A DNA stretch of 64,000 nt. Source: a virus. Both the position numbers and the translations under genes were made by a program. The stretch spans positions 1 to 64,000 of the IMG/VR virus record IMGVR_UViG_3300020442_000011; one strand, written 5' to 3'. The notes under the pieces were generated by a model. It did no database searches. It had not been told where the DNA came from and saw only the letters and a list, made by a program, of their open reading frames with translations. Shown here piece after piece: positions 1,706-48,632 of this stretch; position 1 is the stretch's first letter; every line of letters begins with the position of its first letter.

Positions 1706-1760
1706 TTTTACGTTCCTCCTGTCATTTTAATTAATTCTGCTTAAAAGGCTCATAAAATCA

Positions 1761-1776
1761 CCTATGATATAGTTCG
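1761..1776 (-). promoter_or_regulatory. Candidate phage promoter for the left-edge helicase
   Basis: The minus strand reads CGAACTATATCATAGG about 60 bp before the helicase ATG. It shares the core CTATATCAT with the motif found upstream of seven other genes in the window. It lies in the loop and right arm of an imperfect hairpin formed by ATCACCTA and TAGGTGAT. Confidence 0.45.
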
Positions 1777-1826
1777 TAGGTGATCGACATTAATGTCTTT
1801 CGCTCTAAGGAGGTGATCCAGCTGCG

Positions 1827-1889
1827 ATGTTGGTAGGAGGATTAGTTCCGTTAACTACCAGCTGGGGCCAACCATTCACCGTGAGGTGA
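1827..1889 (+). CDS. Possible 20-aa leader peptide behind a perfect Shine-Dalgarno (alternative reading)
   Basis: An ATG lies seven bases after AAGGAGGTGATCC, which is complementary to 13 bases of the 16S 3' end, and opens a 20-codon frame ending in TGA. The peptide resembles nothing I know. All neighbouring genes are on the other strand, so this is offered only as the competing explanation for the 16S-like sequence. Confidence 0.15.
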   Translation: MLVGGLVPLTTSWGQPFTVR

Positions 1890-1923
1890 CACGTATCCCA
1901 TCAGGCTACCTACGAGCAAAAGT

Positions 1924-1942
1924 CCCTCCCCAATGGGGAGGG
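1924..1942. terminator. Intergenic hairpin, CCCTCCCC/GGGGAGGG
   Basis: Eight perfect GC-rich pairs with an AAT loop, 15 bases after the stop of the minus-strand gene 1958-3076. The minus-strand side continues ACTTTTG; the plus-strand side is followed by TTTATG. Confidence 0.6.
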
Positions 1943-1957
1943 CATTTATGCCGCCTT

Positions 1958-3076
1958 CTATGTTCCGTTTTTTACCTGACGGATAGTACCTAAGACATCG
2001 CAATGGAAAAGTTTACGACTAACAGGATTGAAATAAAAACGGCCTCGTTTAATAACTGTGGAAATATCAATAGGAGTTGACTCCCACTGACTGTTAATAT
2101 AGCGGTGTTCAGTTCTATCACGTAGGTCGTAAATTACATCAGAATCTGTAGGTCGCTGTAAGGCTTTCCAATTTACAAGGTCCTGACTCTGCGACATGAA
2201 CCCGTATTGTACCGGTTGTTTAAAACGCGCCAGTTCAGGACGTGAATTTAAATCCAACGTAAGCTTAGACTCTTGGACAAGTGTTTGGCTGTTATACTTA
2301 CTACCAATTACTGTATAAATGTCCCCACGACGTTCAACGCGTATTCGAATACCTTCTGGAGCATTTACCCAAGGATTCACACTCCATGGATTCTTATCGG
2401 GAGGAACAGTCATGCTACCGGTTGCAGGTTCTCCGGTGGCGTAATCAAGTCCGTCGTTCGTTCCTGCAATTGTCGTTATTTCCCCAATGGTTCCGTAATC
2501 CATGGAAATAGAGAAAACAGGTTGTGTGGTTAATCGCCGAAAAACTTCAAGGGTATGGGATGTACCATCAGCGTCTTGAACATAACCGATGATTAGCCCA
2601 ACAGGGTCATTCTGCCATTCACTGATCGATGTGATTTGAACATCGAAATCGAAATCAGTGAAGTAATCGTTTGAAACGAACCCCACCATTGAAAATGTAT
2701 CTATCGTATTCCCAATCATGTCGAGATCAGCGTCGTAGTAGAAACCTGCTGCTTCACTGGGTATTGCTGCATCACTAAAACCGACCTCTTCTTTTGTCGG
2801 TGTCATACTACCATCAGGGAGCTGTCTTGGTGTTCCAGGTACTCCTCGACTAATCTTACGCCATGTGTCAAAAATAAAACGATTTGACTGTAGTGTTGCC
2901 TTTGCATAACCTAGGTCTTCTTCGTTATCGACGACGGTAAGATCGCTCACTATGTCATCATGTTCGAAAACGAAGCGACCATTACTATCATCTATGAAAA
3001 TTGCTTTGTGACGTCGGGAATTAACGCGACGCATAGCGGCTAACAAGGCATTGGTATAACGTTTTATAGAAGTCAT
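1958..3076 (-). CDS. Probable virion adhesin/tail-fibre-like protein with lectin-like fold, paralogue A
   Basis: 372 aa, function inferred. The middle (about residues 85-310) aligns with the 349-aa product at 3487-4536: a shared F.TW..ISR segment, a VGFvS..yF..f.F.v..tSI segment ending in GxIIgY, an EPATGS block and a RPELA.FK..v..G segment. The acidic GxIIgY-type strands recall concanavalin/LamG-like lectin folds such as thrombospondin C-terminal domains. The last 30 residues form a small module also present in both downstream neighbours. Two near-adjacent copies of a carbohydrate-binding-like fold beside virion genes fit a receptor-binding or tail-decoration role. No catalytic motif seen. 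Confidence 0.5.
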   Translation of the reverse strand: MTSIKRYTNALLAAMRRVNSRRHKAIFIDDSNGRFVFEHDDIVSDLTVVDNEEDLGYAKATLQSNRFIFDTWRKISRGVPGTPRQLPDGSMTPTKEEVGFSDAAIPSEAAGFYYDADLDMIGNTIDTFSMVGFVSNDYFTDFDFDVQITSISEWQNDPVGLIIGYVQDADGTSHTLEVFRRLTTQPVFSISMDYGTIGEITTIAGTNDGLDYATGEPATGSMTVPPDKNPWSVNPWVNAPEGIRIRVERRGDIYTVIGSKYNSQTLVQESKLTLDLNSRPELARFKQPVQYGFMSQSQDLVNWKALQRPTDSDVIYDLRDRTEHRYINSQWESTPIDISTVIKRGRFYFNPVSRKLFHCDVLGTIRQVKNGT

Positions 3077-3486: not shown

Positions 3487-4536
3487 CTATAAGGTTAACA
3501 GAGTAGAATCTGTCGTATAGTAGTAGCGACCTGTTGTGGGGTTGAAGTACATCGTGTTTCTTTTCAAAACACCCGTACTCAAAAGCTGGCTGTAACTACT
3601 CGACGATGATGTCCATGCTTGGTTTTGCCATTGATAGATACGATAGTTGCGCAAATCGATGACTGGTTGTCGAAGACTTGGTTTCGTGATTGTCTTCCAT
3701 GTAGAATGTCGTTGAGAAGCACAACAATATCCGATACGTTGTTGTCCTTTAAAGACGGCTAATTCAGGGTGGTCGTTAAGGGTGAAGGTTGTTTTAGCAC
3801 TTTCTAAGTATTGGTCTTCACCGATATCACTTGTTTCAACAGTAAAGTTATCACCACTTCTGGTGATCCTCAATTTGATAGGTTTTGTTAGACCTGCCCA
3901 ACCACCCCCACCATTGCTAGGACCTGGATAAGAGCCCGTCGCAGGCTCATCGTAGGTTGGCCAGCGTAACCCGCCATAGACGTTGGCGATGGTTAGTTCC
4001 CTGGAACTAAAACTATAACGGTTGTAATCGATGCACATCGGTGCAACGCCGTTTAGACCTCGCATTACAGTGATAATGTGGCTTTGACCTGTTGATGGAT
4101 CAATCGCATAAGCAATAATAACACCAATGAAATCGTCATCACCATCGATAGATGATAGCTCAACCTCGAAGGTGTAATTTTCAAAGAGTTCGGGTGATAT
4201 AAAACCAACAAGGCTTGACGTGTTTTGCGTACATGTAATGACCTGTTGCTCTTCGTCAAACACCCACGCATTTAGTTCACTTGGATTATCGGCGTCAGTA
4301 CTGTTGGGTTGCGCCCGTGAGATTCGACTCCATGTATTAAATACTACAGAGAAATCTTCGTCGGTTCCCAACTGAGCATCTCGCTCAAAATCGCTTGTTA
4401 CAAAACCAATGGGTGCTGCAGCCAGTGTTGACGTAAACTTACCGTCTTCAGATGCTAATAAATGGTAACGACTATTGAGGGGGAGTGTTAGACGTTGTTT
4501 TACAGATGACAAAAAACGAATGGCTTCATTGATCAT
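3487..4536 (-). CDS. Probable virion adhesin/tail-fibre-like protein with lectin-like fold, paralogue B
   Basis: 349 aa, paralogue of the 1958-3076 product. Key segments are FNTWSRISR (near residue 66), LVGFISPELFENYTFEVELS followed by acidic DGDDDFIGVIIAY, EPATGS before a glycine-rich turn, and HPELAVFKGQQRIGY. These look like a beta-sandwich with acidic metal-type loops. The C-terminal 30 residues carry the module common to the three genes. No signal peptide or membrane segment. The gene heads the three-gene group. Role in host-surface binding is inference from fold and context. Confidence 0.5.
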   Translation of the reverse strand: MINEAIRFLSSVKQRLTLPLNSRYHLLASEDGKFTSTLAAAPIGFVTSDFERDAQLGTDEDFSVVFNTWSRISRAQPNSTDADNPSELNAWVFDEEQQVITCTQNTSSLVGFISPELFENYTFEVELSSIDGDDDFIGVIIAYAIDPSTGQSHIITVMRGLNGVAPMCIDYNRYSFSSRELTIANVYGGLRWPTYDEPATGSYPGPSNGGGGWAGLTKPIKLRITRSGDNFTVETSDIGEDQYLESAKTTFTLNDHPELAVFKGQQRIGYCCASQRHSTWKTITKPSLRQPVIDLRNYRIYQWQNQAWTSSSSSYSQLLSTGVLKRNTMYFNPTTGRYYYTTDSTLLTL

Positions 4537-43042: not shown

Positions 43043-43063
43043 TCCCTCCCCATTGGGGAGGGA
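43043..43063. terminator. Bidirectional hairpin between convergent genes
   Basis: TCCCTCCCC pairs with GGGGAGGGA around ATT; the minus-strand side continues CCGTATGG. Confidence 0.6.
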
Positions 43064-46766: not shown

Positions 46767-48632
46767 ATGGGTATCTATGCTACCATGGTGGATTTCGAAG
46801 ATGAGTTTAATCGTCTTGAACGCCCGCCTAAGTTTGCTAACGATTATGATGTCTCACGTCCAGAAGAGCGCCAGGCTCTGGACATGCATCTTTATACTCA
46901 TTACAAGAACACAGACGTCATCGAAACATCAGCGTCGTGCCATTGTGGGTATTACACGTCGGCTCACCGCATTGGTTACATATGCGATAAGTGTCATACT
47001 GAAATCGCCAGCACAGTCGACAGAGCGATTGAATCGTCGTTATGGTTGAGGGCACCAGAAGGAACATTGGGTTTTATCCATCCTGAGTTCTGGTCGATCA
47101 TCGAGCAGCGTCTAGGTACGAGATCGTTTGACTTCCTTCGGTACATGGTCAATACGAACTATAACTTCGACTACACTAAGATCACCTCTAAGGATGCTCA
47201 ACGTACCGTCGATAAATTCCTCGCGTTTGATCCACCTCGTGGGCTTAACAACTTCATCAAACATTTCGACCGTATCATGGAAGGGTTGTTTGAACGGAAT
47301 ATCGTCAGCGGTAGCAAGGCAGAAAAAGAAGAGCTTAAAATGATTATCCAGAATAATCGTTCTTTGCTATTCCCCAAATATCTACCTGTACCATCTCGAC
47401 TTTGTTTCGTTGTTGAGACCACGACGTCGAGTACGTATATCGACGCCCCATTGCGCGATGCAATGAACGCTATCAATGCCATCACCTCCATCCGTGCCGC
47501 TCAAGAACCGATGAGTGATAAGATGGTTCAAAACGTCACCTTTGTGGCGGGTGAATCATTGGCGAAGTTTTACGACAACTACATCACACACCGCATATCT
47601 AAGAAACCAGGATTGGCACGCCGTCACATCTTCGGTAATCGTTTGCATATGAGTGCTCGTGGTGTAATTGACTCAATCAACGACCCTCATTATTTCAGCG
47701 AAATTCACATCCCTTGGGGAATGGCCTTACAGCTATTCAAGTATCACATCTTGAATAAACTTAATCATCGGGGCTTTACTGCTCGCGAAGGGATGGATCT
47801 TATCTATCGGTCTGTTCTTTGTTATAACGAAACGATTGATGAAATCCTCAATGAGTTGATTGCTGAATCACCTCAGATTGATCCTGAGTTCACTGATAAG
47901 CGAGGCATTCCTGTTTCGCTCCAACGTAACCCGACCTTGCAACGTGGATCAACCCAACTTTTCTTCATCACAAAAGTCAAAACCAAGACACGTAATAACA
48001 CCATCAGTATGTCACCTATTTGTTTGCGCGCACCTAACGCGGATACAGTGTACATAACACAGTTAGTGTGTTATGTGTAAGTCCCCTTTGTCAGTAATGG
48101 CAATTGAAACACTTCTCTAATTGCTGGAATCCACTAAAGCTGTCTCACCACAATGTTACCTGAAAAGGTCAGTTAAAAAGCATGAAGGTTTAAAAACGAG
48201 ACAGATGAGATCTACGGATCGAAATGGGTAATCAGCAGCGAAGCTCCTAAGGCGACAGCTATGGAGTGTGTCCAACGACTATCCCCGGCGGGGGAGTAGG
48301 GTCCAAGTGGACTCGAAATGGGAAGGGTCCTTAGGAGTCATCTTAAGGATCGTAATATAGTCTCGACGTCTGGGGAAAGCCCAGAGCAGTGCTTAAGTGC
48401 ACGGGTAGGACTAACGACCCTACTGAAGATCTCGTTCGATGGTGATATGTTGAATATGATTCTTATTCCGGATAATTATCTACGTGATGCGTTTGAGCGT
48501 ATCTCACCCCATCTTTGGGTGTGGTCACTTGACAAACCACATGAAATATCCAACAACCTGACACTTCAAGGTCCTGTCATCGATACAGCGGTTAACTTCG
48601 CGTCAATGACACAACCTGATATTGTCCACTAA
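46767..48632 (+). CDS. RNA polymerase beta-prime N-terminal part, interrupted by a group I intron (exons 46767-48044 and 48435-48632)
   Basis: Catalytic subunit of the phage non-virion RNA polymerase, matching phiKZ gp55. The zinc-binding site is C58, C60, C73 and C76 (CHCGYYT...CDKC). The conserved NRLHMSARGVID..NDPHYFSEIHIPWGMALQLFK region aligns with beta-prime active-site approaches. Joining exon 1 (426 codons) directly to exon 2 (65 codons plus stop) restores NADFDGD at residues 424-430, with catalytic Asp 426, 428 and 430; either exon alone lacks it. Unspliced RNA would read into a TAA at 48078. Spliced product 491 aa. The partner subunits lie at 58926 and 61038; the beta N-terminal part is outside the window. 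Confidence 0.92.
48045..48434 (+). ncRNA. Self-splicing group I intron, 390 nt, no ORF
   Basis: The 5' exon ends in GGAT and pairs with GTCC at 48081-48084, with the U-G wobble at the splice site (P1); the intron ends in G before TTC GAT. Core elements: AATCAGCAGCGAAGC (P4 region), CAACGACTA with GACTA at 48277-48281 and TATAGTC with TAGTC at 48358-48362, forming P7. An additional ten-pair hairpin (ACATAACACA/TGTGTTATGT) fills the P1-P2 interval. P8-like GTCC/GGAC and P9-like CTGGG/CCCAG stems follow. There is no homing endonuclease gene. Confidence 0.9.

Follow-up and report, generated by a model that had tools for sequence, protein, structure and literature searches.

phiKZ seizes host translation within minutes, and the phage factors acting on ribosomes that we found described are proteins such as gp014. 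The latter and other ribosome-targeting phiKZ proteins (PMC10914614, PMC11849849) are comparable to the element analyzed here in being phage factors on the host ribosome, yet they are proteins, whereas the present element is an RNA. The text of PMC10914614 does not mention non-coding RNA, 16S or the anti-Shine-Dalgarno. Two non-coding RNAs of phiKZ have been described by Grad-seq, one from the 3' UTR of PHIKZ298 (~100 nt) and one from the 5' UTR of p40 (~180 nt) (PMC8545117). Like the present element they are non-coding, structured and small, and come from the same phage group, but they originate from mRNA UTRs at other loci, and the element between PHIKZ203 and PHIKZ204 is not mentioned there. 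These were the only phiKZ non-coding RNAs found in the open literature; differential RNA-seq work available by subscription may hold a record of the transcript. No phage RNA that pairs with the 16S tail was found in the open-access literature, and to our knowledge there is no natural antisense RNA family that targets the rRNA anti-Shine-Dalgarno.

Two further groups of pairing sequences are worth comparing. Ordinary and extended Shine-Dalgarno sequences of mRNAs also pair with the 16S 3' tail, but they do so over 4-8 pairs, whereas the element offers 14-18 pairs, lacks a reading frame and carries its core between the helices of a structured RNA that is conserved and has a promoter motif and a terminator of its own. 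The trans-acting antisense sRNAs of bacteria and phages are similar in that the element, too, would act via a single-stranded pairing segment, except that its proposed target is the rRNA anti-Shine-Dalgarno and not an mRNA. Judged by comparative sequence evidence, phiKZ-like jumbo phages carry a conserved gene for a structured RNA that had not been described before, and the element is one copy of it.

The window, i.e. the whole analyzed stretch of 64,000 nucleotides, derives from a virus record of 112 kb. The element is located, as initially annotated, in an intergenic region, between a helicase gene of the phiKZ-gp203 type (minus strand, ATG at 1705) and a structural gene (minus strand, 1958-3076). 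The helicase, P0002, shares ~40-50% identity with its counterparts in phiKZ-like Pseudomonas phages, including phiKZ gp203, and the window phage is therefore taken to be a phiKZ-like jumbo phage that presumably forms a nucleus. The observation that had drawn attention to the locus, an exact match to the 3' end of 16S rRNA, proved real: the minus strand at 1806-1822 reads GCTGGATCACCTCCTTA, with 0 mismatches to the 16S 3' end, and constitutes the only site at up to 3 mismatches in the whole 64-kb window. An exact 17-mer is expected ~7e-6 times in the window by length, and shuffles gave an expectation of 0.10 even when 3 mismatches were allowed. The Pseudomonas-type 16S end containing GCTGGATCACCTCCTTA was verified across many Pseudomonas genomes. 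The other reported components were recovered as well: AGGTAGCC (minus strand, 1911-1904), a second CCTCC (minus strand, ~1841-1835), inverted repeats and a 20-aa open reading frame on the plus strand (1827-1889). At the gathering threshold of Rfam 15 no family was found over the element in the window, and relaxing the threshold in the relatives yielded only chance-level matches, none of which overlapped the element. Elsewhere in the window, at 48046-48386 (plus strand), a group I intron scored 50.7 bits, just above the Rfam gathering score.

The element is often found upstream of the gp203-type helicase. More specifically, the same core precedes the homologous helicase in phiKZ, Noxifer, phiHQ, D6, RVTF4, Psa21 and, inverted, PhiPA3, whereas in 201phi2-1, Viktualia and Phabio it lies some hundreds of bases to 1.6 kb from the homologous place. 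The named carriers are phiKZ, Noxifer, PhiPA3, 201phi2-1, Phabio, Psa21, D6, RVTF4 and phiHQ, to which ~25 metagenomic contigs can be added. The initial annotation had named absence from close relatives as a finding that would count against it; the relatives were searched and the close ones contain the element. In phiKZ it is situated between PHIKZ203 and PHIKZ204, where the reference genome has no annotation. With the phiKZ copy as query 59 Pseudomonas phage records were matched, and among the matches listed nearly all lack an annotation at that position. In HPP-Temi (L108:1912-2007) a short hypothetical protein, possibly spurious, is annotated on the opposite strand beside or overlapping the element.

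The IMG/VR members were identified by a scan with a helicase profile and a scan with the core motif, and comprise L019, L020, L021, L025, L028-L031, L041, L043, L082, L087, L250, L304, L305, L308, L311, L312, L325, L327, L341, L349, L357, L365 and L368. A further copy, with an extra A inserted inside the core, is present in L382, a close relative of the window phage, and L248 looks like a diverged copy (17-19 bits only). The members that were added later via the core motif score 34-56 bits with the covariance model R2, while none of them is among its seeds; L250 scores 29 bits, and matches with little beyond the core reach ~15-28 bits. Whole-genome scans indicated that there is normally one copy per genome; Viktualia has a second motif match, which does not resemble the element. 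A direct blastn search with the window element gave nothing significant.

No model match was obtained in the tested jumbo phages of Erwinia, Klebsiella, Serratia, Vibrio, E. coli (Goslar), Xanthomonas and Stenotrophomonas, nor in Pseudomonas EL, and the single weak match in OBP falls inside annotated genes. The lack of matches in the tested enteric, Vibrio and other distant jumbo phages suggests that the element is a trait of the phiKZ-like clade. The enteric-type core AAGGAGGTGATCCAAC occurs in 40 IMG/VR stretches, none of which matched R1 at E <= 0.5, and with R2 these stretches score at most ~21 bits, which is the level of chance matches to ribosome-binding sites. Goslar (L242, MK327938 87150-87650) has an intergenic core 12-mer, AGGAGGTGATCC, followed by a hairpin with TTTATGCC; it has no model match and was not accepted as a member, and it may represent a diverged relative or chance. 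Within L015, a 12.9-kb IMG/VR contig whose genes are not obviously phiKZ-like, an exact 17-mer complement of 16S is found at 3700-3830 (minus strand), enclosed by the helix GTACTGGG...CCCAGTAC. A terminator-like hairpin comes next, and the whole possibly constitutes an independent RNA of the same kind. The IMG/VR 17-mer matches in L017 and L018 look like coincidences of coding for ..AGSPP-stop. Such minus-strand coding was rejected for the window locus, which is intergenic and displays RNA covariation.

The members are built alike: P1 is the closing helix, P2 a hairpin, and the core is followed by a helix P3 that bears the apical hairpin P3b. All of these are present in the window copy, the structured body of which spans 1772..1917 (plus strand), from the 5' arm to the 3' arm of P1. 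The P1 5' arm (GTTCGTAGGT, 1772..1781) pairs with the 3' arm (ACCTACGAGC, 1908..1917) and includes one G.U; P2 (GACA-TTAA-TGTC) lies at 1786..1797 and covaries across the family; the core (TAAGGAGGTGATCCAGCT), complementary to the 3' end of host 16S, lies at 1806..1823; P3 (CTG GGG / CCC AT CAG) spans 1862..1904, covaries and encloses P3b (TCACC-GTGA-GGTGA, 1876-1889), which also covaries and has a GNRA loop. One extra hairpin (TGGTAG...CTACCA, 1831..1860), containing AGGAGGATTAGTTCCG, is inserted between the core and P3. It is restricted to the window and its closest relatives L019 and L382, and holds a conserved AGGAGGATNAGTTCCG, a second Shine-Dalgarno-like motif. The model R2, which includes the window copy among its 23 seeds, matches 1775-1914 (plus strand) with 40 bits (E 2.7e-9); R1, made without the window copy, gave it 12.2 bits (E 0.6).

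An alignment of all members by MAFFT followed by RNAalifold misaligned the helices and showed little structure on either strand, and a covariance model based on hand-defined helices was used in its place. In the resulting alignment of 23 members 92% of the paired cells can form a pair, a figure that leans towards structure because the alignment was fitted to it; sliding the partner by 1-3 columns reduced the pairing to 29-44%. Of the modelled pairs 19 out of 20 have changed on both sides (7 out of 7 in P1), and the observed covariation values were reached by none of 500 shuffles. The compensations are visible by eye, as in GACAAGG/CCTTGTC, GTACAGGC/GCCTGTAC, GTGTTGG/CCAACAC and, for the window, GTTCGTAGGT/ACCTACGAGC.

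Conservation and covariation bear out part of the initial annotation, namely a functional structured element related to the ribosome. Its leading interpretation, an RNA from the minus strand that mimics the anti-Shine-Dalgarno and binds mRNA leaders or initiation factors, is not supported. Also in a wider form, in which the mimicry takes in the helix-45 region of 16S and tail binders of the Era/bS21 type are captured as well, it is in our judgement highly improbable. The order of 16S is kept on that strand (CAAGG..CCGTAG - hairpin - CTGGATCACCTCCTTA), P3 standing where helix 45 would be, and the minus strand folds as well as the plus: both are better than shuffles (z -2.8 and -3.7, respectively), and neither folding energies nor z-scores discriminate between the strands. 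Nevertheless, the strand-specific signals all point to the plus strand. A GNRA-capped hairpin follows the core on the plus strand in 32 of the 36 members (GAGA, GGGA, GUGA or GCGA, with five-base loops instead in phiKZ and Phabio), against any GNRA hairpin on the minus strand in 2 of 36. The hairpin 3' of P1 has a UUCG loop on the plus strand in 11 out of 30. T makes up 45% of the nine bases that come next, compared to 23% on the matching side of the minus strand; L248, for instance, ends in GAGGAGGGC-GAAA-GCCCTCCTC-TTTTTT. Directly before P1 one finds TATAG (19/36) or TATG (12/36), together 31 of the 36 members, the G of the motif being the first base of P1; the five members with neither belong to one clade. 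The late promoter of phiKZ is TATG with the G at +1 (PMC7598289), and TATAG may play a similar promoter role. The core gives a further pointer to this strand, since its base changes preserve the match to 16S as G.U pairs of a plus-strand RNA. G.U versus A.C counts (20 versus 9) lean weakly to the plus strand as well. Moreover, a minus-strand RNA of phiKZ and many others (24/36 members) would read CCCCC and not CCUCC, a poorer partner for GGAGG, and the upstream minus-strand gene in the window probably terminates just before the element.

The RNA would then be made from the plus strand, at 1772-1942 of the window, and the initial annotation probably chose the wrong strand. In the window copy the presumed promoter and start TATGATATAG is found at 1763..1772, and P1 begins with its final G (1772). 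The presumed terminator consists of the hairpin CCCTCCCCAATGGGGAGGG followed by CATTTATGCC (1924..1952, plus strand), with the T-rich 3' side that is seen family-wide. Read on the minus strand, with ACTTTTG, the same hairpin is terminator-like and probably ends the structural gene (1958-3076) ahead of the element. The terminator-like hairpin CCCTCCCCATTGGGGAGGG (1923-1942) recurs at 43044-43063 as an exact 20-base repeat.

A third proposal was an extreme Shine-Dalgarno for a 20-aa peptide, a reading that can be widened to the loading of ribosomes for a gene further downstream. Its strand is the one favoured here, and in the window the 20-aa reading frame indeed begins at 1827, 13 nt past GGAGG. 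The peptide did not hold up: only 1 of the 36 members, the window itself, has an ATG in the 12 nt that follow the core, and there is no conserved start codon. In addition, a terminator hairpin follows, and the downstream gene differs among the phages. Since the neighbouring gene and its relative orientation vary, the element is not the leader of one gene. The helicase likely has its own late promoter, a TATG at 1751..1754 (minus strand) that conforms to the motif of PMC7598289; the element lies outside the mRNA that would start there. We consider a leader function scarcely credible.

The plus strand is complementary to the anti-Shine-Dalgarno, and its linker UAAGGRGGUGAUCCAG can pair with 16S 1527-1542. 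The window core (1806..1823) can form 17 contiguous Watson-Crick pairs and one wobble with 16S 1525-1542 (-34.2 kcal/mol), and across the members the energies of the duplex range from -26.6 to -36.5 kcal/mol, versus -6.0 to -13.1 kcal/mol for ordinary Shine-Dalgarno strings. The core was compared with the sequence complementary to the Pseudomonas 16S end (TAAGGAGGTGATCCAGCC), a genus-level choice that may not represent the host of each contig. Within core positions 3-15 changes occur only at 6 (A to G, 24/36) and 15 (A to G, 1/36), and in both cases the pairing is kept as a G.U wobble of the plus-strand RNA. Position 17 has changed from C to T in 9 members, and non-pairing changes among the 36 members are confined to positions 1, 2 and 16-18. 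The free tail of 16S comprises 1530-1542, helix 45 ending near 1529, so that the conserved stretch of the core covers the free tail. The core is outside all modelled helices, but its predicted exposure is modest, with an unpaired probability of 0.44 versus 0.38 elsewhere. At the level of sequence, then, the gene, its structure, its strand bias and its complementarity are established. That the core in fact pairs with other RNAs resembling the anti-Shine-Dalgarno, or is a protein-binding site for which the fit to 16S is secondary, is conceivable because 16S binding is deduced and closely related phages may keep a sequence for many reasons; yet the conserved stretch coincides with the free tail and nearly all variants maintain the pairing, which makes such a target distinctly unlikely.

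The complementarity may extend further. Behind P3, the linker together with the P1 3' arm (AACTACGGTGCCTTG in phiKZ, GGCTACCTACGAG in the window) resembles the antisense of 16S 1497-1517; in the window copy, the 3' arm together with GGCTACCT (1904-1911) suggests a similarity to the antisense of 16S 1503-1518. For 30 members the stretch 16S 1488-1522, the collinear place for a second segment, has a summed score of 515, compared to a maximum of 517 among 1495 stretches (mean 342, SD 35), a result that is only suggestive in view of the kinship among the members and of the arm's second function in P1. The segment could be a second contact with 16S or a trace of descent from 16S antisense. The idea of a captured rRNA fragment survives in altered form only: what the plus strand follows in order is the antisense of the 16S 3' end.

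From these features we infer transcription, binding to 16S or the 30S subunit and an effect on translation. The reading we prefer, with modest confidence, is that the phage makes a stand-alone plus-strand RNA which attaches to the 16S tail and blocks the initiation of translation or biases it. The RNA gene (1772-1942, plus strand), bounded by a promoter motif of its own on the 5' side and by a terminator hairpin on the other, would present the linker UAAGGRGGUGAUCCAG flanked by P1, P2 and the branched arm of P3 and the GNRA-capped P3b. The linker would pair with the free tail of host 16S (1530-1542, and up to ~1526 if helix 45 frays) over 14-18 bp. It would in this way occupy the anti-Shine-Dalgarno and the site of tail-reading factors, and initiation on Shine-Dalgarno-led mRNAs may be blocked or biased during infection. 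The phage's own genes have Shine-Dalgarno sites (mean -6.8 versus -4.4 kcal/mol at random places), so a blunt block of translation would also hurt the phage, and such a shut-off could work only if the RNA were suitably timed, localised or limited in dose. The A inserted into the core of L382 speaks against this reading as well.

The same sequence evidence would also suit a plus-strand RNA whose pairing with 16S is a means of docking on ribosomes or pre-30S particles and serves another end: delivery of a bound phage protein, an effect on 30S maturation, late parking of ribosomes or retention of the RNA in the cytoplasm. The late-promoter motif TATG fits a late role better than an early shut-off, and 16S 1497-1517 is buried in the mature 30S, so that the possible second antisense match would suit immature 16S. 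That match is, however, only suggestive, the arm is part of P1 as well, and no protein partner is known; we regard this alternative as rather unlikely. Returning to the block or bias of initiation, a fuller version is that the RNA of nucleus-forming phages docks by 14-18 bp on the 16S tail, possibly with a second contact at 1497-1517, as a natural ribosome inhibitor or re-programmer that has evolved from or converged on an antisense of the 16S end. Our confidence in this version falls slightly short of even.

What is found is an RNA gene that has been kept across divergent phiKZ-like genera, normally in a single copy, with a core that fits the free 16S tail. If the proposed function is true, the element would be a natural structured ligand of the anti-Shine-Dalgarno and would represent a new viral way of acting on ribosomes, and the takeover of translation by phiKZ-like phages would become directly testable in these terms.
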